From: Plumapathes pennacea
Taxonomy: Eukaryota > Cnidaria > Anthozoa > Antipatharia > Myriopathidae
Direction of reading: 5' to 3'
Length of the DNA stretch: 64,000 bases
Assembly (NCBI GenBank): GCA_964036295.1
Contig: OZ038471.1
Location: 9,380,184-9,444,183, forward strand
In this document: positions 669-58,496 of the stretch, one piece after another
Position numbering within the stretch: the first letter of the stretch is position 1
How the letters are laid out: each line of letters starts with the position of its first letter
Notes under the pieces: generated by a model
Seen by the model: the letters and a program-made list of their open reading frames with translations, nothing else
What the model was told of the DNA's origin: nothing
The model's database searches: none
Position numbers and translations under genes: made by a program

Positions 669-1353
669 TGGTGTCCAAAGGATCCGCTCGTACAAGATCC
701 AGTTCTAACTTGGAATCTTCTATGAGTGAGCAAATCAAGAGTTATTCAACACTGAATTAAAGAAATATCTTCAATCCGCTGGATTTCAAGAAATATTGAG
801 CCAAACGCTGAAGTGCGCCATCGACGAAGCTGTCGAAGCGGCAACGAAGCCGCTCAAAGAAAAGATCAACAATCTTGACAGCCAGCTCTTTCTAATACGG
901 GAGAAGACCAATGACAACGAGCAATATTCCCGACGTTGTAACGTTCGCATAACTGGAATTGAGGAAGATGAGCAAGAAGATTGCTATGGAAAGGTAATTG
1001 CCTTCTGTAACAAGGAATTGGGGGTTAAAATCGATCAACATGAAATCGATCGAGCACACCGTGTTGGGAGACCCAAAGCTGATGGTTCACGCTCGATGAT
1101 TGTCAGACTTAAGAGCTATCGAACGAAGACCCTAGTAATAAAGAACAGAGGGAAACTGAAAGGAAAGAACTTATACGTAAATGAGGATCTAACAAAACCG
1201 AACCAGGAACTCTACATGCAAGTTCGCAAAGATTTCCGCGATGTGGGCCTTACATACACTCGGGACGGAGCCATCTTTATTAAACGGCGTGATGATGGGA
1301 GAATACTCCGTATTAGACGCAAGGAAGACCTGTTGAGCATCTCGCAACGTTAG
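669..1353 (+). pseudogene. LINE ORF1 protein, frameshifted
   Basis: ORF1 probably starts at 669 (MVSKGSARTRSSSNLESSMS). It shifts frame at about 735 and then runs open to the stop at 1351-1353. The long frame has a charged coiled-coil stretch (EAATKPLKEKINNLDSQLFL) followed by a compact domain with NVRITGIEE, EIDRAHRVGRP and a basic C-terminus, the layout of L1-ORF1-like RNA-binding chaperones (Transposase_22 type). In that family it coats the element RNA for retrotransposition. Function here is inferred from layout, and the frameshift makes this copy non-functional. Confidence 0.7.
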
Positions 1354-1603
1354 ACTGTGGCCTTGTGTCTTTAGACACCTAGCTCTATGACTCTCTTTGC
1401 TAGTTGTGTTCTTTTTACTATGTACTTCGTACCTACTTTTTTGTTCCAATTTTGTATCTATTTTTGTGCTAGTTGTGCTCATAGCGTGGTTTGTTGTGTT
1501 CTGTCTTGTGTTCTCACCCTGGTAGATGCATTTTTCCATTGCCAAGTAGTACGTGCGCAACAAGAGGTAAGCAGTCATATTTTTCTACTTTGGCTCCCAC
1601 TAG

Positions 1604-4146
1604 ATGGGGGTTGATCTAGTAAGTTATAGGGCAGCAATCGGGTTATTTAACAGTCGATATCTACTTCTGACTTACAAGTTGCTTTTCACTTTATCGTTAT
1701 CTTCACTTGTAAACTTAAGTGTACTTGTAAGTTTTTTAGCATTTTTGATTCTACTATCCGGAAACGTTCACCCAAACCCAGGTCCCAGTCAACTTTGCAT
1801 CTCGCTTGCACACTTGAATGCCCGTAGCCTTTGCTCTAGTGATAAGCTCCACGAAATCTCCGCTCTCACTATTCTGCATAAATTTGATATTCTAGCCATA
1901 ACTGAAACCTGGCTCAGTGTCAATATTACTGATGATTCAGTTCTTATTCCGGGCTACAGTGCTCCTTTACGAAAAGATCGAATCGCAGGTAGAGGTGGTG
2001 GAGTTGCAGTTTACTTGGCCGATCATCTTTTCTACAAAAGGAGAACAGATTTTGAAAATGATAATTTAGAATTAATTTGGGTCGAAATTATCATAAAAAA
2101 TTTCAAACTTCTTTGTGGTGTTTGTTATCGACCACCAAATTCATCTTCTGAAAGTGTTGGCGCATTCTTTGACTTCTTACAGAATTCTTTTGATCTCATA
2201 AATGCTAATGGTTTTTCATCAGTTGTTCTTACGGGTGATTTTAATGCTCATTATAACTTCGTGGATACTCCATCTCCTAGCACAGACACTGGATTGAAGC
2301 TTTAAAGTTTTTTGGAATGTAATAACCTCTTGCAGCTTATTGAGGAACCAACGCGAATTACCCAGTCAACCGAATCAATCCTTGACCTTATTATTTCTGA
2401 TTCACCAGGTTACTTTATTTCATCTGGAACCCTCAGTCCTCCTGCTAATTGCGACTTCAATGTTATCTTTGGCAAATTTGTTATTCCCATCAATAAGCCG
2501 AAATGCTTTCAAAGAAGTGTCTGGAACTTCAAAAATGTGAATGTCGAACAATTAAATGAGGCTCTTTTAAATGCAAACTGGGACCAGGTGTTTCAACCTA
2601 ACGAAGGCAATATTGACACTGTTTATGATAAATGGTTAGCAGTCTTTCGATCTATTGTGGAGAGTTTTATCCCTCACAAAAAATGTCGTCATCCGTCCAA
2701 ACGACAAATCATGGATGAATGGACATATTCGTCGCGCCATGCGCAAACGTGATCGCCTTTTAAAGCAATATTCAAGGAATAAACTTGCCTTGCACTGGGA
2801 AAGTATCGCCTACAAAGGAATCTAGTCGTATCACTGATTCGCAAAGCAAAATCACAATACGATAAAAATATCAATGAAACATTGATGGATCCAACTTTGT
2901 CTACAAAGAAATGGAGGAACATTGTCAAGTCGTTTTATGGCCGCAAAACGTATTCATCCATCCCAGCTCTTATTGAAGGCAATGCACTTATCTATGACCC
3001 TAAAGAAAAAGCCGAAATCTTTAACAAATTCTTTATAAGCCAGACATTTTTAGATGGCTCCAGCTTATTAGAGCCACCTCAATTAGCTCCTTTTACTGCA
3101 GAGACAATATCAAATTTGCAATTCTCTGAACAAAAAAGTTCGCAATCTTTTATGTGAGGTAAATATCTCCAAAGCATGTGGTTTTGACGGAATCAGTAAT
3201 AAATTAATTAAAATTTGTAGTCCTGGTATTTACCGTTCGTTTGCACGTCTAATCAACACGTCGCTGTCTCTTGGTCAATTTCCTAAATGCTGGAAATTTG
3301 CAAATGTGCTGCCTCTATTTAAAAAAGACAATCGACAGTTAAAATTTAACTATCGTCCCGTCTCACTTCTGCCATGTCTCAGCAAAATTTGCGAAAAGCT
3401 GGTCTTTACTAAACTCTATCAATTTCTCGAACATATCGGTTTCTTTTTTCGCTTCCAGTCAGGATTTCGTCCAGGCGACTCAACAGTGATGCAGCTAACT
3501 TACATTGTTCACAAGATCTATGAAGCCTTTGAAAGGGGGAATGAAGTTAGGGCTGTTTTCTTAGATATTTCCAAAGCTTTTGACAAAGTTTGGCACAAAG
3601 GATTATTAGCAAAACTACGTCATATAGGTGTTAGTGGTTCTTTGCTTTCTTGGTTTGAAAGTTATCTCTCTGAAAGAGAGCAGAGAGTGGTCATTGAGGG
3701 ATTTAATTCTTCCTGGAGCGGGATTCGTGCAGGAGTTCCTCAAGGTTCGGTTCTTGGTCCCCTTCTCTTTTTAATCTATATAAATGATATTCAATCTAAC
3801 GTCCAGTCATCCTGTTTTCTATTTGCGGATGATTCATTTTTGTTAGAGGAAGTTACTAGCTCACCCGATGTTTCAGTACTTCGCTTAAACCAAGATCTTC
3901 AGTCTATTATGTCTTGGTCTAAGCAGTGGTTGGTAACCATGAATGAATCAAAAACTAAATCAATGTTGTTTTCTCTTAAAAGAGGAAATCCATTTCACCC
4001 TCCATTAACTCTAAACGACATTACAATTGATGAAGTTAGTAGTCATGAGCACTTAGGACTCACTCTGTTATCAAATATGTCTTGGCGTGCACATATCCTC
4101 AACATACATCAGAAAGCTTAAAAAAAATTGAACTTATTGAAAGGTC
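1604..4146 (+). pseudogene. LINE ORF2: endonuclease and reverse transcriptase, broken
   Basis: The N-terminus is hydrophobic (residues about 20-50) and ends in a 2A-like NPGP motif (GNVHPNPGP). An APE-type endonuclease follows with AHLNARSL, ITETWL, GRGGGVAVYL and GDFNAH. The final SDH motif appears as CDF, so a catalytic residue is lost. A stop near 2303 and shifts near 2700-2880 and 3150 break the frame. The reverse transcriptase (3306-4121) shows FLDISKAFDKVWH, AGVPQGSVLGPLLF and the catalytic box FADD. The thumb and C-terminus were separated by the insertion at 4151 and lie at 17300-18166. Clade placement among CR1, L2 and jockey is by motif only. Confidence 0.85.
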
Positions 4147-6164: not shown

Positions 6165-7416
6165 TTTATATCCCTCGATGTAAACAGGAATGATGCCCAA
6201 GTTTCCTATCTTACACTCTACATAGACCAGTGAACGGTCTACAAAGCTTCTTATTGTTACGTTTAAATCCTGGACATCATCTTGTAACAATTAAATTGCT
6301 CTTGTAACCTTGCTGATCTTTCAGGGCCCACCGTACGACACACGCCGTCTAGTCGCCTTTCGATTATTTGGCGTCAAGTACAACCCGAGTCGTATATCTC
6401 CCTAAAATTATTGTTTTACCTTATTTATAAAATCCTGAGCTCACCCAAAATGACTATTCGTTTCATTTGCCATCAAATAAGCATATTGAATTTGCCGACT
6501 TAGTGGCATCGGTATGCAAATAAACACCGGAACGCACCGGATGCGTGACGCCAGTATCTTGGTCAGCGGTAAAAAGTGCTGCTTTTAAATTATTTTAAAA
6601 GTTACTTTAGTTTTGTGAGAAAGTGTTTTTTTCTGATTGCTTAGTCAAGCAGGCTAGTGATTTTATTTAGCTAAATGTGCCAGCACTAAATGCAAAAGAC
6701 ACACCTAGCTTATAATACAGGGGCTTAAAATTTTGGCTTAGTAGGAGGCATCAGATATGCAAAAAAATACTACAGTTTTGATATCGAAGAATTTAAAAGC
6801 GTAACTTATCTTTTTCAACTGGAATTATGAAATGTACATTATTGTGCATAACGGCTAGAATTCAATACAGAATTAAGGCAGGACTATGGGTAGTGTAGGG
6901 TTGGAATTGCATGCTGAGTTAAAGTTCCAGCTCTCCGGATTTTAAGCATGGTGGTGATCTCTTCTACCTCTGCAACGCAGTCCTCCTCATCTTGAGCTGG
7001 ACTTACATCAGGCTGGTCCCTAGCTAGCCGGCCAGTCTTATAGAGTACAGAGAGTCTGCTAAAATACCGGGATATTTGGTCAGCAAGCCACTCGTCTTTG
7101 TTGAAGACTTTTTTGCCATTTTCATCGCGCAGAGTCCTCATCTTGCTGCACACATCTACTGTACTTGCCTTTCGTCCTGTCTCCTCGCCTTCCATGAAGA
7201 TATTTTTCAGGTGTGTCTTGACTTTCTCTGAGAAACGGACTGCTCTTCGATATGTTTTTAGAGCCCATCCCTTTGAAGCCTGGTGATCGGGTTCAGTGGC
7301 GGCTATATGTGAGAGCGAACCAGTTTCTCTTTGAATGTAGCTCCCAGAGACCTCTTTGCACGTCTCGGGCCACTTTCTTTTGATAGTGTCATAGGTTGTT
7401 TCCCTTTCTAACCTTA

Positions 7417-38887: not shown

Positions 38888-40275
38888 AAATGTTACAGTA
38901 CACTCGTGTCAATGTAATTCCTAAGATCCAGTCACAGAGTGGCTTATGGAAAGCCTGGTCACAGTGTGTCCACGTTCGAGTAAGATTGCTTAAGATCCGG
39001 TCACAGGGTGTCCTGGCTCACGGAGGGCCTGGTCACAGAGTGTCCATGTTTGATTAAGCGTCTAAATGTTGCAGTAGACTAGTGTCCATGTAATTGCTCA
39101 AGATCCGGTCACAGGGTGTCCTGGCTCACGGAGAGCCTGGTCACAGAGTGTCCATGTTCAATTAAGCGCCTAAATGTTGCAGTACACTAGTGTCTATGTA
39201 ATTGCCTAAGATCCGGTCACAGGGTGTCCTGGCTCACGGAGAGCCTGGTCACAGTGTGTCCATGTTCGATTAAGCACTTAAATGTTGCAGTAGACTAGTG
39301 TCCATGTAATTGCTCAAGATCCGGTCACAGGGTGTCCTGGCTCACTGAGAGCCTGGTCACAGAGTGTCCATGTTCGATTAAGCACCTAAATGTTTCAGTA
39401 CACTAGTGTCTAGATGTAACTGTTTAAGATCTGGTCACAGGGGGGCTCACAAAGAGCCTGGTCACAGTGTTTCCATGTCTAAATGTTGCAGTACACTCGT
39501 GTCAATGTAATTCCTCAGATCCAGTCACAGAGTGGCTTATGGAGAGCCTGGTCACAGAGTGTCCATGTTTGATTAAGCACTTAAATGTTGCAGTAGACTA
39601 GTGTCCATGTAATTGCTCAAGATCCGGTCACAGGGTGTCCTGGCTCACTGAGAGCCTGGTCACAGAGTGTCCATGTTCGATTAAGCGTCTAAATGTTGCA
39701 GTAGACTAGTGTCCATGTAATTGCTCAAGATCCGGTCACAGGGTGTCCTGGCTCACGGAGAGCCTGGTCACAGAGTGTCCATGTTCGATTAAGCGCCTAA
39801 ATGTTGCAGTAGACTAGTGTCCATGTAATTGCTCAAGATCCGGTCACAGGGTGTCCTGGCTCACTGAGAGCCTGGTCACAGAGTGTCCATGTTCGATTAA
39901 GCGTCTAAATGTTGCAGTAGACTAGTGTCCATGTAATTGCTCAAGATCCGGTCACAGGGTGTCCTGGCTCACGGAGAGCCTGGTCACAGAGTGTCCATGT
40001 TCGATTAAGCGCCTAAATGTTGCAGTAGACTAGTGTCCATGTAATTGCTCAAGATCCGGTCACAGGGTGTCCTGGCTCACAGAGAGCCTGGTCACAGAGT
40101 GTCCATGTTCGATTAAGCACCTAAATGTTTCAGTACACTAGTGTCTAGATGTAACTGCTTAAGATCTGGTCACAGGGGGGCTCACAAAGAGCCTGGCCGC
40201 AGTGTTTCCATGTCTAAATGTTGTAGTACACTAGTGTCAATGTAATTCCCAAGATCCAGTCACCGCGTGTACAGA
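38888..40275. repeat. 108-bp minisatellite with higher-order structure
   Basis: About 12-13 copies of a 108-bp unit (GAGTGTCCATGTTCGATTAA ... AGATCCGGTCACAGGGTGTC ... GAGAGCCTGGTCACA). Spacing of GAGTGTCC at 39773, 39881 and 39989 gives the period. A variant block with AGATCCAGTCACAGAGTGGC and a shortened unit (CACAGGGGGGCTCACAAAGA) recurs near 38920, 39420-39540 and 40165-40260, giving a super-repeat of about 0.6-0.7 kb. No coding. Confidence 0.95.
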
Positions 40276-42039: not shown

Positions 42040-42059
42040 CTTCACAGGTAACTTTTTAG

Positions 42060-42480
42060 AATTCCCAATTTGTGAAAAAAAGGGGATATTTCAGGGTTTT
42101 CAGTGGGTTTTCTTTGGGAATTTCCCAAATTGGGAAAGTAGTACCAAACCCAATCATGGGACAAGAAATCCCCAAACATTTCCCTTTCATGGGTTTTTAA
42201 TGTCCCAGTTTTTTTCCCTTTCATGGGTTTTTAATGTCCCAGTTATTTCCCTCTCATGGGTTTTTAATGTCCCAGTAATTTCCCTTTCATGGGTTTTTAG
42301 TGTCCCAGTATTTTCCCTTTCATGGGTTTTTAATGTCCCAATATTTCCCCTTTTATGGGTTTTTAATGTCCCAGTATTTTCCCTTGCATGGGTTTTCAGT
42401 GTCCCAGTAATTTCCCTTTCATGGGTTTTCAGTGTCCCAGTAATTTCCCTTTCATGGGTTTTTATGTCCCAGTAGTTTTC
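42060..42480. repeat. Left subterminal array (33-bp units)
   Basis: About eight to nine units of TTTCCCTTTCATGGGTTTTT AATGTCCCAGTAA with period about 33 bp, preceded by GGGAATTTCCCAAATTGGGA near 42116-42138. The plus-strand frame across it translates as an 11-residue repeat and is an artefact of the array. In EnSpm elements such subterminal repeats serve as transposase binding sites; here that is inferred. Confidence 0.85.
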
Positions 42481-42859
42481 TAGCTATGTTCCAATATTTT
42501 CCCTTTGCTCAGGTTTAGTGTGCTAAATGGTTTACTTTTCATGCATTGCATACAGAAGTGGTGTGCCAAGCAATTCAAAATCAAACATAGAAATAAAGTT
42601 TGAAAAACACATTTTATTAACTTGCACTTCAATGCAAAATTGCATCTACAAAGAACACAACAATAACTTGCAGGTCTTACATACACAACGTGCTTAGTTA
42701 CCACAAACAGTATTATAATAACAGCATGGAATTTAATGTCAACATATCAATCAACTTGTATGAAGTAACACAAACTGACTCAATTAAGGTACATATATTA
42801 ACTATAATTAACAACAGTACTAAAGGACAAGCAATCTAGGTGCTAGGAAGAAACTTCTT

Positions 42860-44822
42860 CTAAAGTTCGATTTCCTTTAGAACAGTAATATCCTCCCTCA
42901 GGCTTTTAATATCTCCAGCTTTTACATGGCAATAATCATGCCTTACAAGCTTTTTAGCTAAGACATTGAGCAATTCACCTGGTGTGAGACCAGTCAAGTT
43001 CTTGTGCTGGACACCAAACTTCTTTTTCAGTACATCAATAATATTATCTCTGTTGATTACTTTGCCAAAAACACCTTTTACAATTGCCTGGTTTACCTTT
43101 AAAGACCAAGGACCTTCTGCCTGACTTAAAACATTTGTCTGGCTAGCAGGTGGGGAATCTATTTCCTCTTCATCGATTATTTCTGTATCACCAGTACCAC
43201 CACTTTCAGGACTCTCTGGCTCAGATGTTGTTCCACTTGACATTTCCTCAGCTGACTGAAATGAAAGAAATCAATAAATATTGTAAATTTTTTATCAAAA
43301 AGATAGCAATGAAATATTTTCAATCTACCTTGCTGCAAATTTTCTGAATCTTAATTGAATTTGATTTAGTTTTCTATAATCTTGTTAGCATATAGGTAAT
43401 TCAACTCCTGTCCTCTTGTGTGGGGAGAGGGTATCTTTCAAAAGTCAATGTTTCTAAATTGACTGTTTTGATACCCTAGCAGCAATTGTGTGTAAAGCTT
43501 TTGTGACTAATATCTGCATAAGCAGAAAGTGAAACTGAAATCATAAATCAAATGTAACAGTAAAAGAGGCATCGATATCATTACAGTAACACTCAGAAGT
43601 TAATAAAATAGTACTTACAGCTAGAGCTTTATGCTTTTTCCTTGGTTCATCGACCTAATTGACATAGCAGAACTTTATGGCATCAAAAATAATACAACAA
43701 CAATTGGAAAGCTGCTTGGTCATTCAGTTTTGTCACTCGGTCAATCTTAGCGGTGTTGAATGTATTATTTATATGGACTACCAGTGTTGTTTCGCAGTCA
43801 CAAAAATGGCTTAACCTTCAGTATGCGACAGTTTGAAAAGTGCAGTACAAACCTTGTATGTTAGCTTTCTAGTCTTCAAGTACCGCCTTTGCTCATTAAA
43901 AAACGTCTGTATATGTTTTGCTATCCCTTCCTCGGCGAAGTTAATTTCTGGTATTCCACATTCCAGAACAATTTCCGAGGCGAAGACCTTTAGCTCCGAC
44001 TTAGCTTGCGGAGTGTTGAATTTGGGAATTTCATTTCCCCATCTGTTGGTCGCCAGAATTCCAATTTTCTTTCTCCTATTAGTGTAAAAAGAAAAATGTG
44101 AAAGAAATGTAAAACATCACTGACGGCCGTGCATGTTCTTCAGGTTTCTCCAGCCTAATAAATAAGATCAATAGGGAAAAAATGTTCCACAGCTGTTAAA
44201 ATATATGATAACAAGTCATCGTTTGTATGACTTACTTGGACAAATAAAGTTGTTTCATCTCTGGCGTAAAAGTGGACATGTCCGCCATTGTTGGTTTGTA
44301 CAGCACAGGAGAAGATAAACCACTGCGAGGTGTGCCCAGGATTGTGTGTTTTTTGGTTCCAAATTCTTTCTTAAAACGGACCGCTTTGCCATAAGTAAAG
44401 CCTAGTTTGGCATATATCGGAGCGTCTGCATCTCGCGACGCTAAATCCGCCACAAGTTGGGCATCAGTGATCTCCTCCACTACAACGAGAAATGACCATG
44501 AAATAAATAGACAGCACCACAGAACAGCTTGGGAAAACTCAAATAAAGCATTATTTCCATCTGGAACTGCAGATCCTGAGACTATAAATCAAGACAGCAG
44601 AAATTCACCAGAGTCTCACTGTTAATCGAAACGGCGGGAAAATAAGATTGAACTTCCATGCTCATTTTGTACTCAATGTGTAGGTCATACTCGTTAAAAC
44701 TTACCTTGAAGGGCTTCAAAAATCGCCTCCCCAAATAGGGAACGAACTTTGTTCAGGACATTGCCATCACTGGGAGTGTCACAACTGTCAACCATATCAC
44801 TACCACTTTGATCAGTCGCCAT
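42860..44822 (-). CDS. EnSpm accessory protein (TnpA-like role?), five exons
   Basis: Exons 44822-44705 (MATDQSGSDMVDSCDTPSDG), 44479-44236, 44076-43853, 43654-43619 and 43255-42860, all with GT-AG sites and matching phases except one problem: exon 3 contains a run of five G (44041-44037, minus sense) where four would keep the frame, so this copy has a one-base frameshift or an assembly error. The product would be about 340 residues: acidic N-terminus, a conserved-looking middle (RRYLKTRKLTY, KKIGILATN), a basic patch PRKKHKAL, a Ser/Glu-rich linker and a C-terminal helical domain (IIDVLKKKFGVQHKNLTGLT). No family recognised. A role as the DNA-binding partner of the transposase is inferred from position. 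Confidence 0.75.
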
Positions 44823-44977
44823 GCCTTCCCACATCAAAAAGAGGAACTACAGTAGTTTTGACGTGCTTATGACAGGTATTAGAGCGTTTCTTATTGGTCC
44901 AAGTCAAAAGTCCGCTGACCAAAGCTTGAGATTGCAACAAAAGCCCGCGAAAAGATGGGCGAAAAGATGGCGGAAAG
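44823..44977. promoter_or_regulatory. Bidirectional promoter of the EnSpm element
   Basis: Only 155 bp separate the two divergent start codons. It contains an inverted CCAAT box (ATTGG, 44893-44897) and no clear TATA box. Expression of both proteins from this short interval is inferred from the arrangement. Confidence 0.6.
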
Positions 44978-47900
44978 ATGGCTTCAAATCTTTTCAAGTC
45001 CATTTGGACTAGAGATGAAGTGTCTTCGTGCAGTTGTTCCGAGAAATCTTATAGACACGTACACTGCCGATGCTCACGTTGCAACGGAAGAGCAAAATCA
45101 AGAAGCACAGAAATGCGCCACTGGAGAGACGTGGTTTCTCAACTGAAATCGAATGATATTGCAAATGAAAGTGTTGAAAGCGATGCTGCCGACCAGAGTG
45201 AGCCTGAGGGAGATCAAGGAATGGAAGAGGAAGAAGTTCGAAGCGATGCTGCCAAACAAGTTGAATCTGAGGGAGATCAAAGAATGGAGGAGGAACGAGG
45301 TACCGAGGGGCAACGTTCAAGAAGTGCTTCCGATAGTGATACGCGTGACAACAGAGATGTGGATGTAAACCCAATGAAGCAACTGATAGTTAAGGCGGTC
45401 TTGGATGCATTAAGAATAAAGCAAAACAGTGGAGTGTCAGTGAAAACCTTCGAAGAAGTTTTAGAATATGGAAAGACACTCCTATTTACGTCTCTGGGCG
45501 AAGATGTTGATTGTGACATTTTGTCAACTTTATGGCCAAAAAGCTGGAATGATGTCCAGTTACTTTTGAAAGAAGAGGGGTATGAAGGTGCTCAAGATTA
45601 CTTCATTTGTTTCTGTCGTGAGGAAAAAGAATTTACAAGGAATGGGAAGACTACAAAAAAGTTTGTGTATAATGGAAAATATGGCATCATGGAGAGCAAA
45701 CATGACAGTTGTCCCCACTGTGGTGGTACCGGTTACATAAAATACCTTTACTTGGGCCTGGACATTAAAATTAAGAATTGGTTTCGAGATAAAACTTTTT
45801 GTAAGAAGATGCTTGCACACTGGCTTGAGAGAGAGCACTGGCTAGATCAGAGTGGAGGTTGGGAAGTAAAGAAAGAAATTTGGGATGGAAAGAGGTGGTC
45901 AGAACTTCAGTGGTTTTGGAATCCAGAGAGTGTTTGGGCTTTACCAACTCTTTGTGTGCATTGTGACATGCCTATCTCTGCAGACTACTTGATTAACTCA
46001 CCAGATGGACACGGTGACTCCAAAACTGTGGAATGTCCTGTTTGCTTTGACATTTTTCAGCATCCTATTCAATGGGTGAAAGGCTCTCCATTGAACTTGG
46101 CCTTAATAGGACACTGGGATGGGTGGCAGCCATTTGGCACAAGTTACAGAGGATCTGGTTCATTTGAAGTTTCCATTGCCAACATGAGAAAGGTTGACAG
46201 AAATCATGTGGATGAAGTTTATGTTGTAGGATTTGTGCCTTGCTTTGAAGTTCCAAATGTGCCCCAGACACTTGATCCTTTCTTGCAGCCTTTGATGAAG
46301 GATATTTGTAAACAATTTGTTCAAGGAATTCAAGTTGACTACCCCAAAGGAATCGAAATTGATGATTATGAACCATCTGAAGAAGAAACAGTGAGAGTGT
46401 TATTATTGTGCTGGACAGCTGATCATCCTGGCCAGTGTGAAACAGGAAAGTTTTTAAACCAGGGCAGATGTCCATGTCGCAGGTGTAAACTCGTGGGCCA
46501 GCATCTCGAGAACAGTGCTAATACACATTATTATTATGGGGGAAATCGTTATCATTTTCGGCATCCATGGGGACAGAGGAGCATTGAATCTCAACTTGAG
46601 AATGATCTGTTTGACATAGAGAATGAAACAAGGCCAAGTGTTAGAAAGAGGATGTCTTCAGAGAAGGGCTTCACTGGCATTTCTGTTTTTCACAAGTACC
46701 TTTACCCTCTCTATGGTTTTGATGTTTTAAACCATCTTGTGTATGATGTCTATCATACTGTTCCCTTGAATGTTGTCAAGAATCAGTTTAGCAGGCTTTT
46801 GGATCTTGAGATGGTGGACAGAAGCTACCTTGATAAACAAATTGCAAACTTTCCATGGACTCGAGAATTGAAGAATGGCAGAGTTCCACAACAAATAGGT
46901 AAAGACTGCAAAGGTATTGGATATTGGAAAGCTGAAAGTTTCCAGAAGTTTTCTTTTCCTATGGCAGAATGTATCATGGAATATCAAGTTGATCCTAAGG
47001 AGTATGAAATTTTGTCACTTGTATCAAGGCTGACCGAGTTGCATTTCCATGATGGAAGAAATGGTTGGACTGATGAAATGATCCATTTTCACCAAAAGTT
47101 GGCATGGCGACTGAACATATTAATTGAAGAAGTGCAGGGTTTGTCTATGTGCACTATTTCATTACACAACCTACTTCATATTTATGAAGACATCATCAAT
47201 TTTTCAGCACCTGACAATTTTTGGTGTGCAGTGTTTGAGAGAGCTGTGAAAGGATATGTGAAGAGATCACACAATGGGAAAGGCATTGAAGCCACTTTTG
47301 CCCATGCTGAAGCAAGAAGAGAGTTTCTGAAATCATGTAAGGGAAAAGTCCAAATCCCATCCAATCCTGGAAAGTATGACATCTCACTGGTGAGTTTGCC
47401 TTATCAATATATACAATATCAAGTGCATTATGGGATGAATTCAGTTGTGAAATTTTCTTCCAAAGTGCTTAAGAAGGTTTCCGCTGTAAACTTGAGTAAT
47501 AATTACTATTTAGAATGATTACCCTTACCACAATGAATACACTATAATTGTATATGTTGATATATATTGATGGCTCATTATTTCTGCAAACAGCTGCACA
47601 GTATTATATATTTTATACAGTATGTTATATCTTATATAATTATGTTACATGACACAACTGCTTTTAACTGCTTTTGTTTTAAGTACGGTGTAATGTAAAA
47701 TTGCATAATTTACATGTATTTACCTATTTTAGGGAATAGTCAGCTCTATTGTAACAGCTAAGCAACTATCACAGGTGAAACCTCCACCCAGAGAAGCCTT
47801 TCTTGTTGGCCCTATGTCCAATATGAAGCCTATTGAGGTGGATGACCGTAACAAGATAGCTGAGCTGTTGTCTGTTGACCCTTGCACAGTTCCAGTGGCT

Positions 47901-48551
47901 GCATTTGTTTCCAACAGATGTTTTAAACCAGATGTTGGGATTGATGGAACTTCATTTTTATGTGGAGATACTGTGATTGTCCTAGTCGGTGGACAAGAAA
48001 CTGTAGTAAGGCTGCAAGGGTTTCTCTCTATTCGCATTGCTGGTGATCATTTCAGTTTACTAGGCAAAGGGATTAGTCATGCATTACACTACACAGATGA
48101 TGGTCAAGTTCACAAAAACTTCTGGAGTGGCTTTGTTAAGGCTGAAGGTGAGCCACAAGTTCTCAACTCATTCATGTTTGAGATCAAGAACATTTGCAGG
48201 AAAGTGATTCTTCACCCCTGTAATAGCAATTTGGTGACAGTAGTTGATTACATGCGACAATTGAGGCATCTTCCACATGCAGTAATAATACCTGTTTATC
48301 CTGAGGCAGGGGACATGGTGTTAATTCAAGGTGAAGAGCCTGAAGACATTTGGCATGGTCATGTTCAAAGTGTTGATCTCATTAACAAAACAGTAGATGT
48401 TTTCTTTTATGTAAAAAATCAGAGACATGATGGCTGCTATGTGAGGGAAGTTCATGGCAGACATGCAAGGAACAGAGTCGCATGGGACTCCCTGATTGGG
48501 ATTGCAAGTGGCCACTGGGGCAGCGTTTCGACTTGGGTAAAGGAGGATTAA
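44978..48551 (+). CDS. EnSpm/CACTA-like (TNP2-type) transposase, two exons
   Basis: Exon 1 44978-47389 (804 codons, no stops; start AAAGATGG) splices at CACTG|GTGAGT to exon 2 47733-48551 (after ATTTTAG), in phase, total 1,077 residues. Without splicing the frame would stop at 47518. The N-terminus is acidic and low complexity with a Cys/His cluster (residues about 15-45). Zinc-ribbon pairs CPHCGGTGY, CVHCDMP and CPVCFD follow, then LLLCWTADHPGQCETGKFLNQGRC, and a C-terminal block with HNLLHIYEDI and FERAVKGYVKRSHNGKGIEA that resembles the TNP2/DUF4218 region of EnSpm transposases. Exon 2 adds about 270 residues, ending in a possible SH3/BAH-like fold (GDMVLIQGEEPEDIWHGHV). It would cut at the CAC ends. 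Catalytic acidic residues cannot be assigned by eye. Confidence 0.85.
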
Positions 48552-48839
48552 ATATCCACAACATTGGACAGAACCTGATGAGACATACTCCAAATCAATT
48601 TGCTTTTTTTCCTTGTAGAACAATATTAATGGTACTCCCATGTTGCTAATATGGGGTGAGCTTTCTCCTGAAATGACTCTATTAAAGTTGTCCACTTGTA
48701 TGTTTTGGCTAGAAAGGAATGTAATTTTATTATTTGGGATTATGTGTGTATACAATTTTACTGGCTTGGGGATTATGCGAAGGTTTTTGTGTACAGGAAA
48801 AACTACCTTTGAGAACGAAACAAAACAATATTATTGTTT

Positions 48840-49427
48840 TCCAACATTTTTGACTTATTTTTCCAACTTTTCCCAATATGGGGAGTTTTGCTCTCAATTT
48901 TTTGCAGTATATTCCCAAGCCCAAACTGAAAATTAAACAAGTAAAAACCCAAACTTTTACTAAGCTTTTCCCAAAACAGAAACATCTTGCCCATCTTTTT
49001 CCCAAACTTGGGAAATTTCCCCATTTTTTTTCAAGTTGGGATTTTATTGCTTTAATTTTTCAAAATATTTTCCCAAGCCTGGAAAAATTCCCAACTTAAC
49101 TACAAAATGGGAATTTAGGATGAAAAAACCCCAGACTTTTACCAACTTTTTCCCAAAACAGGAATATCTTGTCCCATCTTTTCCCAAACTTGGGAAATGT
49201 TCCCAATTTTTTTCCAAGTTGGGATTTTATTGTTTTAATTTTTCAAAATATTTTCCCAAGCCTGGAAAAATTCCCAACTTAACTACAAAATGGGAATTTA
49301 GGATGAAAAAACCCCAGACTTTTACCAACTTTTTCCCAAAACAGGAATTTCTTGTCCCATCTTTTCCCCAAACTTGGGAATAATTCCCAATTTTTTCCCA
49401 ATTGGGAATTATGAAAAGTTTCCTGTG
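48840..49427. repeat. Right subterminal array (183-bp units)
   Basis: Two full units and partial flanking copies with period 183 bp (GGGATTTTATTG at 49038 and 49221). Each contains several TTCCCAA and TTGGGAA boxes and near-palindromes such as CCCAAACTTGGGAAA. The open frame over it is an artefact. Likely transposase-binding region by analogy with EnSpm elements. Confidence 0.85.
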
Positions 49428-49430
49428 CTT

Positions 49431-56448: not shown

Positions 56449-58496
56449 ATGGCTTTGCGATCGGACACCGTTTTTAATTGTATCTTTTCCGAAGAGGTGG
56501 ATGTGAACTTCCAGTGTCAGATCTGGTAAGAAGAGTTGTTATTGCACACAATTGGAGTTATGTTGTTAGCAATGACGCCGCACTGGTAACACCATGTTCT
56601 TTGAAACAATTTCAGCTTAGGAGTGATGCTAAAGCCGGTTACGTTGCCTTGTGGCCACTCAGGCTGCTGGAAGTGTTTGGATCAGTTGGGAGCGACAAAC
56701 ACACGGCCGAAGTGTCCCGTTTGCAGAGTGGGATTACCTGGCCGTCTCACCGTTAACATATGCATAGACCAGCTGACAAGGAAACTGCCTATGCAGTGTT
56801 CCAACACAGGATGTACTTGGAGAGGCACGTACGGAGAGGCCGAAGGGCACGACGTAGTGTGCCCTAAAAAAACGGTTCAGTGCAGTAACGGAGGCTGCCA
56901 CGAGGACATGGAGCGGGAGGAGTTAGCCAACCACAAGGACATGTGCCCGAAGCAACTGGTCTCCTGCTCCAAGTGCAATAAAGACGTTGCGCGGGAAGTA
57001 CAGGCCGGCCACCAGTCAGAGGGCTGCTCTTTTGCCACGGTGGATTGCCCTCTGGGCTGTGGAGAACGATATCCTCGGTATGTAATTTGGTCGAGTTTAT
57101 CATCTCAATTTCAGCATGAATTAAATTCTATATGATCTGTTACTTCTCATTTATATTTTGCACTTTCTCGATTTCCTTATTCGATTGTACTATATAACTT
57201 AGATGTAATACTCATTCTCAATACTCCCGCGCATATAATACCACTATGCAGTAAACTCACGACGGTGCACGCGCTGTAGTGGGTGTGGTAGAGCACTCCA
57301 AGAGGCCGCCGTGCATAATATGAAATTAGTTCAATATTTCTTAGTGGTTGTGAAAAGGAAAGGTAACAGAAAGATTTTGAGAGGTTATTCTCTCAGCTTC
57401 TAACAAAAATATAAATGTTTCTTGAAATATTAAAGCTGACCTTATTCCCTTTCCTCTAAATTATCCCCCCAGCACTTAGTGACGTCTGATTCAGGTTTTT
57501 ACAGTAAGAGACAATAAAGCCTTGTTTCTTTTATCTGTATAGATGCCACATCCATATGCATCTGCATCGGTGCCAACGCAGGGCTACAGCCTGTAGTGTC
57601 AAGGGCTGCAAAGCTATTAAACGGCGGCAAGACTGCATTGAGCACCAATCGGAAGCGGCGTCAAGCCACCACCAGATGCAATTTGCAGAGATTCAGCGGC
57701 TGCGTCGGCTGATTGACGAAAAGGCAAGAAAGACTGATACTTTCTTCAAGAGAATTAGAAGTAGTGTTCAGTTGGGAGCAAATAACTGCAGCAAAATCAA
57801 AGATAGAAAGTAGAATCGATTATAATATTATTACTAGTCAAAGGATCATGAAATGTTCTGAGAAGGGCCCAGCTGATCAATAACGTTCCAATATTTTGCA
57901 GAAGTCGCACCAGGAAAGCTTGGTCAGAAAGGAGGCCACGATTACTTCTTTTCGATGGAATATTCCCCGCTTCAAAGAAGTAATTGTCCAACATAGAGGG
58001 GCCACGTTGTACAAGCCTCTCACCAGCAACACATTTGCGGCGATCGACGGTCATCGCTTCAGGGGAATTATCCAGTTTCAGAAGGATTACGGCATCTTTT
58101 TACAGCTGGTTGCTGCAGTAAATCCTGTCACGGCGGAAATAAGGTAACGAATATCAAAGTTAATATCACGAGATGACAAGAGACATGAGAGGTGTGGTAT
58201 GTTTTCACACCGTTCACGCCACTCTCAAAGAATGCCCTATAAGAGTCTCGCTGCGTTTATATCAGAAGTTTTAAGTGCAGGGTATTCTGTAGTTAAGCCC
58301 CAGTTGAGCGCCCTTTTTTAACACTTCCAGGATAGTCCTAAAGCCAGGACAAGGCGATCAAGTGGTTTACCCCCTGAAGGAAGTAACACTGGAGGAAGGA
58401 AAGAGTTTCGGAAGGAAGCTAGATCTGGAGAAGTTCACAGGAAATGATGGAGAGCTGTGGATTAAGTTTATTGTAAAGATTTTCAATTTAATTTAG
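56449..58496 (+). CDS. RING plus TRAF-type zinc-finger protein, five exons
   Basis: Exons 56449-56525, 56616-57077, 57543-57723, 57902-58143 and 58331-58496 total 1,128 nt and give 375 residues in one frame. Residues about 20-70 form a RING finger (CQIC spanning the first junction, LPCGHSGCWKCLDQL, CPVCR). Three or so TRAF-type zinc fingers follow (CSNTGCTWRG, CSNGGCHEDM, CSKCNKDVA, CPLGCGER, RATACSVKGC), then a short coiled coil (FAEIQRLRRLIDEK). The last 130 residues sit where a MATH/TRAF-C domain would be, but I cannot confirm that fold. Exon 3 uses a GC donor (GAAAAG|GCAAGA), inferred because it alone keeps the frame. Expected role: ubiquitin-ligase or adaptor in receptor signalling. Short in comparison with classical TRAFs. 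Confidence 0.82.

Follow-up and report, generated by a model that had tools for sequence, protein, structure and literature searches.

The stretch of Plumapathes pennacea DNA analysed here (64,000 nucleotides; below, the window) carries a 7,385-bp DNA transposon with inverted ends CACAGG...CCTGTG, flanked by a CTT duplication (positions 42043-49427). In all likelihood it is a complete, recently inserted cut-and-paste transposon of the EnSpm (CMC) superfamily, which carries, besides the transposase gene, a second gene whose product may join the ends of the element in a manner similar to TNPA. A complete EnSpm/CACTA-like element with two divergent genes had been proposed by an earlier, sequence-only reading, and the ends, the CTT duplication, both genes and the existence of other copies all support that proposal. 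Coordinates of the features are given in the table.

The outermost CACAGG and CCTGTG are exact complements, whereas the complete 50-nt arms are 78% complementary; the matching, CAC-starting inverted ends and the CTT on each side are thus present as initially described. When 290 Mb were searched with the end pattern (up to three mismatches), 4 + 4 matches were found, six of which pair into three complete elements, whereas the control with the reversed pattern yielded 0 + 0; the pattern can therefore not be ascribed to chance. The two complete copies found in addition to that of the window bear out the expectation of further copies with identical ends. Each of the three has its own 3-bp duplication (CTT, TAA and GCT) and different flanking sequence. 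Over ~7.3 kb, the copies are set apart by 3-6 substitutions and, in the left array, by 133 bp; both genes are open in all of them. This supports a recent insertion, in agreement with the previous suggestion, and the transposon is apparently young. The same end pattern was used to look for short derivatives. Beyond the complete copies, two single ends turned up. One belongs to a partial relic on C1, which reaches about 97% in its long blocks, and the other is a left end on C8 (about 89%) that is both truncated and interrupted.

Related sequences devoid of the element occur elsewhere in the genome for two of the three insertions (CTT and TAA). For the window insertion, two of six matches to the flanks cross the junction without the element; one, at C2:32300872-32301171, pairs 300 bases with 300 (99%), and the other, at C6:17179804-17180111, 308 with 300 (96%). 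For the TAA insertion, on C1, 25 of 40 scored matches (57 candidates) extend from base 1-11 to base 297-300 over the junction, at 81-95% identity and with lengths of 267-316 bases. None of 42 matches crosses the junction of the GCT insertion (40 of 727 candidates scored). These sites, recognised as element-free from the span of the matches, are paralogous, unlike the orthologous empty site originally envisaged; they are in line with CTT being a duplication.

Table. Features of the element and its borders (window positions)
Feature	Position	Strand	Remarks
Left target-site duplication CTT	42040..42042		CTT on both sides; related element-free sequence known
Left terminal inverted repeat	42043..42092	+	Starts CACAGGTAACTTTT; 50 nt, 78% complementary to right arm
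Left subterminal array	42178..42478		33-bp unit x 9.1; 133 bp missing from C4 copy
Candidate polyadenylation signal of gene 2	42613-42618	-	AATAAA
Gene 2	42860..44822	-	338 aa, five predicted exons; homologous to SAM-matching protein of sister family
Predicted exons of gene 2	44822-44705, 44479-44236, 44075-43853, 43654-43619, 43255-42860	-	
Spacer between divergent start codons	44823..44977		155 bp; presumed shared promoter region of both genes
Transposase exon 1	44978..47389	+	Residues 1-804; D381 (codon 46118-46120), D482 (46421-46423), C500/C503, H730/H734, E754 (47237-47239)
Transposase intron	47390..47732	+	343 bp, GT...AG; joined residues 795-818 match one uninterrupted sister-family stretch, no gap
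Transposase exon 2	47733..48551	+	Residues 805-1076, C-terminal region, including stop; sister-family similarity
Right subterminal array	48943..49407		183-bp unit x 2.5, TTCCCAA/TTGGGAA-rich; repeat and motif counts
Right terminal inverted repeat	49378..49427	-	Last bases CCTGTG; paired with left arm
Right target-site duplication CTT	49428..49430		CTT also on left side

Two divergent genes are confirmed, the transposase on the forward strand and gene 2 on the reverse strand. The predicted transposase consists of 1,076 amino acids followed by a stop, and its frame is intact once a single intron has been spliced out; without splicing, the frame of exon 1 hits a stop at 47518. An uninterrupted transposase of 1,077 residues had been claimed; uninterrupted is right for the spliced frame only, and the figure of 1,077 includes the stop. 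The protein contains a D-D-E core together with a C(2)C motif (C500xxC503) and an H(3)H motif (H730xxxH734), and in these columns it agrees with three further EnSpm-like transposases encoded by the genome. The several zinc-ribbon pairs reported before were an overstatement, as a single classical pattern is found (C326/C329 with C353/C356), in addition to C245/C248 and an N-terminal Cys/His cluster. Residues 857-1066 show about 30% identity to a sister family present in the same genome (see below), and the structure predicted for exon 2 alone is unusable (mean pLDDT 32.4). Comparison of the transposase with solved structures gave six matches, none convincing, the best one (E 0.016) being to SAKe6FR, which we take to be a designed protein. 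One scan of a viral-contig collection with exon 1 as the query revealed no relatives.

Plausibly, cleavage by the transposase takes place at the CAC...GTG ends and integration occurs with a 3-bp stagger, while the second protein, the product of the divergent gene, would bind the arrays located at both ends. These TTCCC/GGGAA-rich subterminal arrays, noted already in the first reading, were confirmed. Of this motif, the left 478 bp contain 14 occurrences (mean after single-base shuffling 0.84) and the right 587 bp contain 22 (mean 0.78). Self-assembly of the second protein through a SAM-type module, whose presence is suggested by the sister family, could then bring the two ends together, as TNPA does in maize En/Spm. 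The precedent for such end joining is TNPA: maize En/Spm depends on a helper protein binding repeats close to the ends (PMC2613891). We infer an accessory, TNPA-like role of the gene-2 protein.

The sister family, B, has copies on C2, C5 and C8, and its transposase is about 41% identical to that of the window element. It also possesses a divergent second gene, whose homology to gene 2 is indicated by a Smith-Waterman score of 150, compared to a shuffle mean of 30.7 (s.d. 5.1, maximum 69, n=1000), and in both families the first three exons each leave a remainder of 1 when their lengths are divided by 3. Although a local tblastn search did not detect the sister gene 2, the whole-genome search recovered it at E 6.4e-4 to 1.65e-3. 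All 19 genome matches of gene 2 (E up to 1) lie in such elements, i.e. the three intact copies, one relic and three sister copies. The second gene of the sister family seems to specify a SAM (protein-assembly) domain, its product barely exceeding the SAM_2 threshold (20.7 bits vs the 20.5 cut-off, E 0.00047), whereas the Pfam profile search, SAM models included, gave no match in the gene-2 protein of the window element. Among solved structures, the sister protein had three weak matches, to CNK1 and two Atherin sequences (E 0.81-1.6), presumably all SAM proteins; a two-sequence profile of the SAM region built from both gene-2 proteins had no match there, and nothing useful was found with profiles of the two gene-2 regions. 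CACAGG ends (C2 and C8 copies), the Cys cluster, the D-D-E core and the C-terminal region are common to both families. On the other hand, the sister elements are 12.8-15.9 kb long, their terminal inverted repeat is unlike that of the window element beyond CACAGG, and their transposase match falls into seven pieces, suggesting more introns. The unspliced sister frame reads CRRD where the window element has C500-R-R-C503, at a position near a putative splice junction.

We tentatively propose an animal EnSpm lineage, perhaps still mobile and represented by at least two sister families, that may need two separately encoded proteins, the transposase and a divergent SAM protein which would assemble on the arrays and join the ends, being a counterpart of TNPA with an unrelated architecture. 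Nevertheless, many DNA transposons need one protein, and there is a distinct possibility that the transposase suffices here as well, gene 2 being cargo or a regulator (e.g. acting against host silencing) instead of an end-joining factor. Such a possibility would agree with the absence of a detectable domain in the element's own gene-2 product, with the marginal SAM call in the sister family, and with the comparison to the relic, in which constraint on gene-2 exons is not clear. Relative to the relic, the ratio is 0.51 for gene 2 (18 nonsynonymous changes, 10 synonymous) and 1.31 for the transposase fragment (10 nonsynonymous, 2 synonymous); the gene-2 exons, differing at 29 of 983 aligned bases, are more diverged than its introns (12 of 937). 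Coding constraint is not evident, and selection on either gene is not supported by this comparison. However, gene 2 has been kept divergent, with matching exon phases, across families whose transposases share only about 41% identity, and the predicted protein is identical in the three complete copies, which speaks against this alternative.

The assignment to the EnSpm superfamily, made from sequence features, is firm. Termini of the form 5'-CAC...GTG-3' and 3-bp duplications are criteria for EnSpm in PMC12730594, against whose EnSpm features the catalytic core was also assessed; all three complete copies have CACAGG...CCTGTG ends and a 3-bp duplication. Since the element starts with CACAG instead of CACTA, it was not classed among the canonical CACTA elements. 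Of the plant-type CACTA features, it has subterminal repeat arrays at each end. Pfam matches to PF02992 and DUF4218 had been predicted at about residues 450-780; for the former, a weak match covers residues 429-530 and scores 17.1 bits, short of the cut-off of 28.6, and the latter is absent from the Pfam profile search. Since three of the four other EnSpm-like proteins tested from the genome pass that cut-off at 54.7-61.1 bits (the fourth being a fragment without a PF02992 match), and PlavakaB can also show 3-bp duplications (PMC12730594), one might consider another CMC(T) lineage, such as Mirage, Chapaev, Plavaka, Lanisha (among the papers searched, found only in PMC12730594) or an unnamed one. 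This appears improbable, as CAC...GTG ends with 3-bp duplications are EnSpm features there, and the Plavaka ends (TGT...ACA, CATCA...TGATG) are unlike those observed here. That the nearly identical copies are assembly or segmental duplicates, and not products of transposition, is hardly conceivable, considering that flanks and 3-bp duplications differ at each copy and that element-free related sequences exist for two of the three insertions.

According to PMC2613891 and PMC4158355, maize En/Spm and plant CACTA elements share with this EnSpm element the cut-and-paste layout with short inverted ends and repeats in the subterminal regions, the 3-bp duplications and the presence of a second protein in addition to a large D-D-E transposase. 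However, TNPA and TNPD of maize are produced by alternative splicing of a single transcription unit, whereas here a separate divergent gene is present; moreover, plant elements begin with CACTA, in contrast to the CACAGG ends, sub-threshold PF02992, missing DUF4218 and Pfam-negative gene 2 of the window element. SmTRC1/TRC are animal CACTA-superfamily elements with a Transposase_21-type protein, and the SmTRC1 duplication was likewise demonstrated through paralogous element-free sites (PMC1636069). According to the same paper, SmTRC1 is bounded by CCC ends, shows 2-bp direct repeats (7 of 14 copies), measures about 4.5-4.7 kb and gives rise to transcripts that are alternatively spliced, whereas the window element combines CAC ends with 3-bp duplications, a length of 7.4 kb and two divergent genes.

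In the literature on SAM domains with transposons and on animal CACTA/EnSpm elements, we came across no EnSpm element described as having a SAM-domain partner, and little on whether animal EnSpm relatives need a helper protein. With both genes open in three near-identical copies, the question could be addressed compactly by comparing the transposase alone with the transposase supplied together with the second protein. If the partner proved to be required, a self-assembly domain in a transposon end-binding protein would solve an old problem in a new way, and the element could give rise to a new laboratory transposon system.

The element measures 7,385 bp (42043-49427). Its outermost bases pair as CACAGG...CCTGTG, its terminal arms show 78% complementarity across 50 nt, and CTT immediately flanks it at left and right. 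The window corresponds to C10:9380184-9444183. When the whole genome (290 Mb, 24 contigs) was searched with the end pattern, allowing up to 3 mismatches, 8 places were found against 0 for a reversed control, and six of these pair into three complete elements. The sequence-only reading had called for other copies with the same ends, and this search supplied them: two further complete elements with their own 3-bp duplications, so that same-ended units stand at three places with a different duplication at each. Pairwise comparison of the three copies, over 7,252-7,385 aligned bases, gives 3, 5 and 6 substitutions. The left array of the C4 copy is missing 133 bp, and the window copy is one base short of the other two. 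Both genes are open in all three copies, the sole amino-acid difference being V1069I in the C4 transposase. One of the two remaining single ends belongs to a partial relic on contig C1 (about 97% identity over long blocks), while the other is what is left of a left end on C8, truncated and interrupted (about 89% identity). The 7 substitutions that separate the three copies are without exception A/G on the plus strand (43431, 44012, 44152, 47164, 47687, 47774, 48525), and the relic carries G at the three such positions covered, numbers too small to interpret. The motif TTCCC/GGGAA is concentrated near the ends, with 14 occurrences in the left 478 bp (29 per kb) and 22 in the right 587 bp (37 per kb); its density is 2.5 per kb in the element interior and 2.0 per kb across the remainder of the window.

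Features of the window and complete copies of the element
Feature	Position	Strand	Details
Transposase, predicted	starts 44978	+	two exons, GT at 47390 joined to AG before 47733; 1,076 aa
Gene 2, predicted	from 44822	-	five exons, GT...AG introns; 338 aa
Left array	inside left end		33-bp unit x 9.1
Right array	inside right end		183-bp unit x 2.5
Complete copy	C10, window element		duplication CTT
Complete copy	C1:20381500-20388885		duplication TAA
Complete copy	C4:7939305-7946557		duplication GCT
Tandem array	38985-40177		108-bp unit x 11.2; about 1.9 kb to the left of the element
LINE-type retrotransposon remains	730-4118	+	open frames with Exo_endo_phos (endonuclease) and RVT_1 (reverse transcriptase)
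Open frame, likely host gene exon	56605-57132	+	RING and TRAF-type zinc fingers

Related sites free of the element were sought with 150 bp of left flank joined to 150 bp of right flank, the duplication being kept once. For the window insertion, two of six matches crossed the junction, one at 99% identity (300 bases for 300), the other at 96% (308 for 300). At the C1 insertion, 25 of 40 scored matches (57 candidates) span it, from base 1-11 to 297-300, at 81-95% identity and lengths of 267-316 bases, which indicates that this copy lies inside a repeat. None of 42 matches crossed the junction of the C4 insertion (40 of 727 candidates scored). These element-free sites are paralogous, not orthologous; their match length and identity suggest a single target copy before insertion, most strongly for the 300-for-300 match, located on C2.

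If left unspliced, the exon-1 frame of the transposase meets a stop at 47518. The splice junction is supported by the joined residues 795-818, which align without a gap to one unbroken stretch of a sister family; since no transcripts stand behind them, this model and that of gene 2 are predictions. A profile search had been expected to return PF02992 and DUF4218: the former did appear, on residues 429-530, at 17.1 bits, below the 28.6 cut-off, and the Pfam profile of the latter gave no match in the transposase. Among four other EnSpm-like proteins of this genome, three score 54.7-61.1 bits with PF02992, above the cut-off, and the fourth, a fragment, had no match. In an alignment, D381, D482, C500, C503, H730, H734 and E754 fall in columns shared with those three; by sequence, the predicted protein carries a D-D-E core of the cut-and-paste type. 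The EnSpm transposase features taken from PMC12730594 are all present in the element. The sister family retains one zinc-ribbon-like pattern (C326/C329, C353/C356), C245/C248, the N-terminal Cys/His cluster and, at about 30% identity, the C-terminal region. In the unspliced frame of that family, D stands in place of the second Cys of C(2)C, near a putative splice junction of its own.

The exon-1 protein found 36 places in the genome at E up to 0.001, among them three further elements, on C2, C5 and C8 (about 41% identity), which make up the sister family and are 98.8-99.5% alike over their longest blocks. On the right, the C2 and C8 copies close with ...CCTGTG, and the C5 copy diverges just before this point. 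With far ends set by the end pattern, the lengths are 12.8 kb for C2, 15.9 kb for C8 and, provided that a 3-mismatch end is allowed, 13.0 kb for C5. Genome-wide, the sister end pattern occurs at 55 places (32 + 23) against 3 in the control, and elements with such ends are therefore common. At 22 of the 32 places with listed letters it reads CACAGGAAAAAATTTTGAAAAAC (counted by eye). Among the 55, eleven pairs that face each other at a distance of about 1-8 kb can be selected by eye (e.g. C3:1825762-1831788, C7:16772324-16777508); these may be smaller elements related to the sister family. At two further loci, L048:2126-6182 (C12) and L049:2479-5966 (C4), 97.9-99.6% identical over four blocks, an EnSpm-like transposase frame (897/898 aa) adjoins a frame on the opposite strand with a protein kinase domain (Pkinase, 71.6 and 73.3 bits); a transposon may have captured a host kinase there.

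Gene 2 diverges from the transposase, with 155 bp between the two start codons. Searched against the genome with an E threshold of 1, its protein gave 19 matches. The three copies and the relic account for four exon groups apiece, and the three sister copies for one exon apiece. Three of its exons can be traced in the C2 sister copy, divergent from the transposase and with the same phases, and the two proteins align with a Smith-Waterman score of 150 (mean 30.7 and maximum 69 in 1000 shuffles). The sister protein reaches 20.7 bits with SAM_2, just above the 20.5 cut-off, the Pfam search found no SAM_2 match in the element's own protein, and a profile built from both matched no solved structure; the designation SAM-type, transferred by homology from the sister protein, is thus marginal. 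Around exon 3, the profile search matched nothing known. Relative to the relic, gene 2 has 18 nonsynonymous and 10 synonymous changes (ratio 0.51) and the transposase fragment 10 and 2 (ratio 1.31); gene 2 exons differ at 29/983 aligned bases and its introns at 12/937, the reverse of plain coding constraint. This comparison, with a relic possibly decayed as a pseudogene, lends no support to selection on either gene.

The element is EnSpm in the broad sense and, because the CACTA pentamer is absent and the Pfam cut-offs were missed, no canonical CACTA element. Animal TRC elements, as described in PMC1636069, have CCC ends and 2-bp repeats, unlike its CACAGG ends and 3-bp duplications. A search of the literature found no report of a SAM-domain partner in EnSpm elements; similar families may already be catalogued, for example in Repbase.

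On the model of maize En/Spm, the gene 2 product would be the end-binding partner of the transposase. SAM domains commonly self-associate, a property that would fit a role in joining the ends. In maize, the subterminal repeats are bound by the protein TNPA, and transposition needs both TNPA and TNPD (PMC2613891). The same article describes the binding proteins of different elements as having little in common and the transposases as conserved; an unrelated gene 2 architecture would therefore fit such a partnership.
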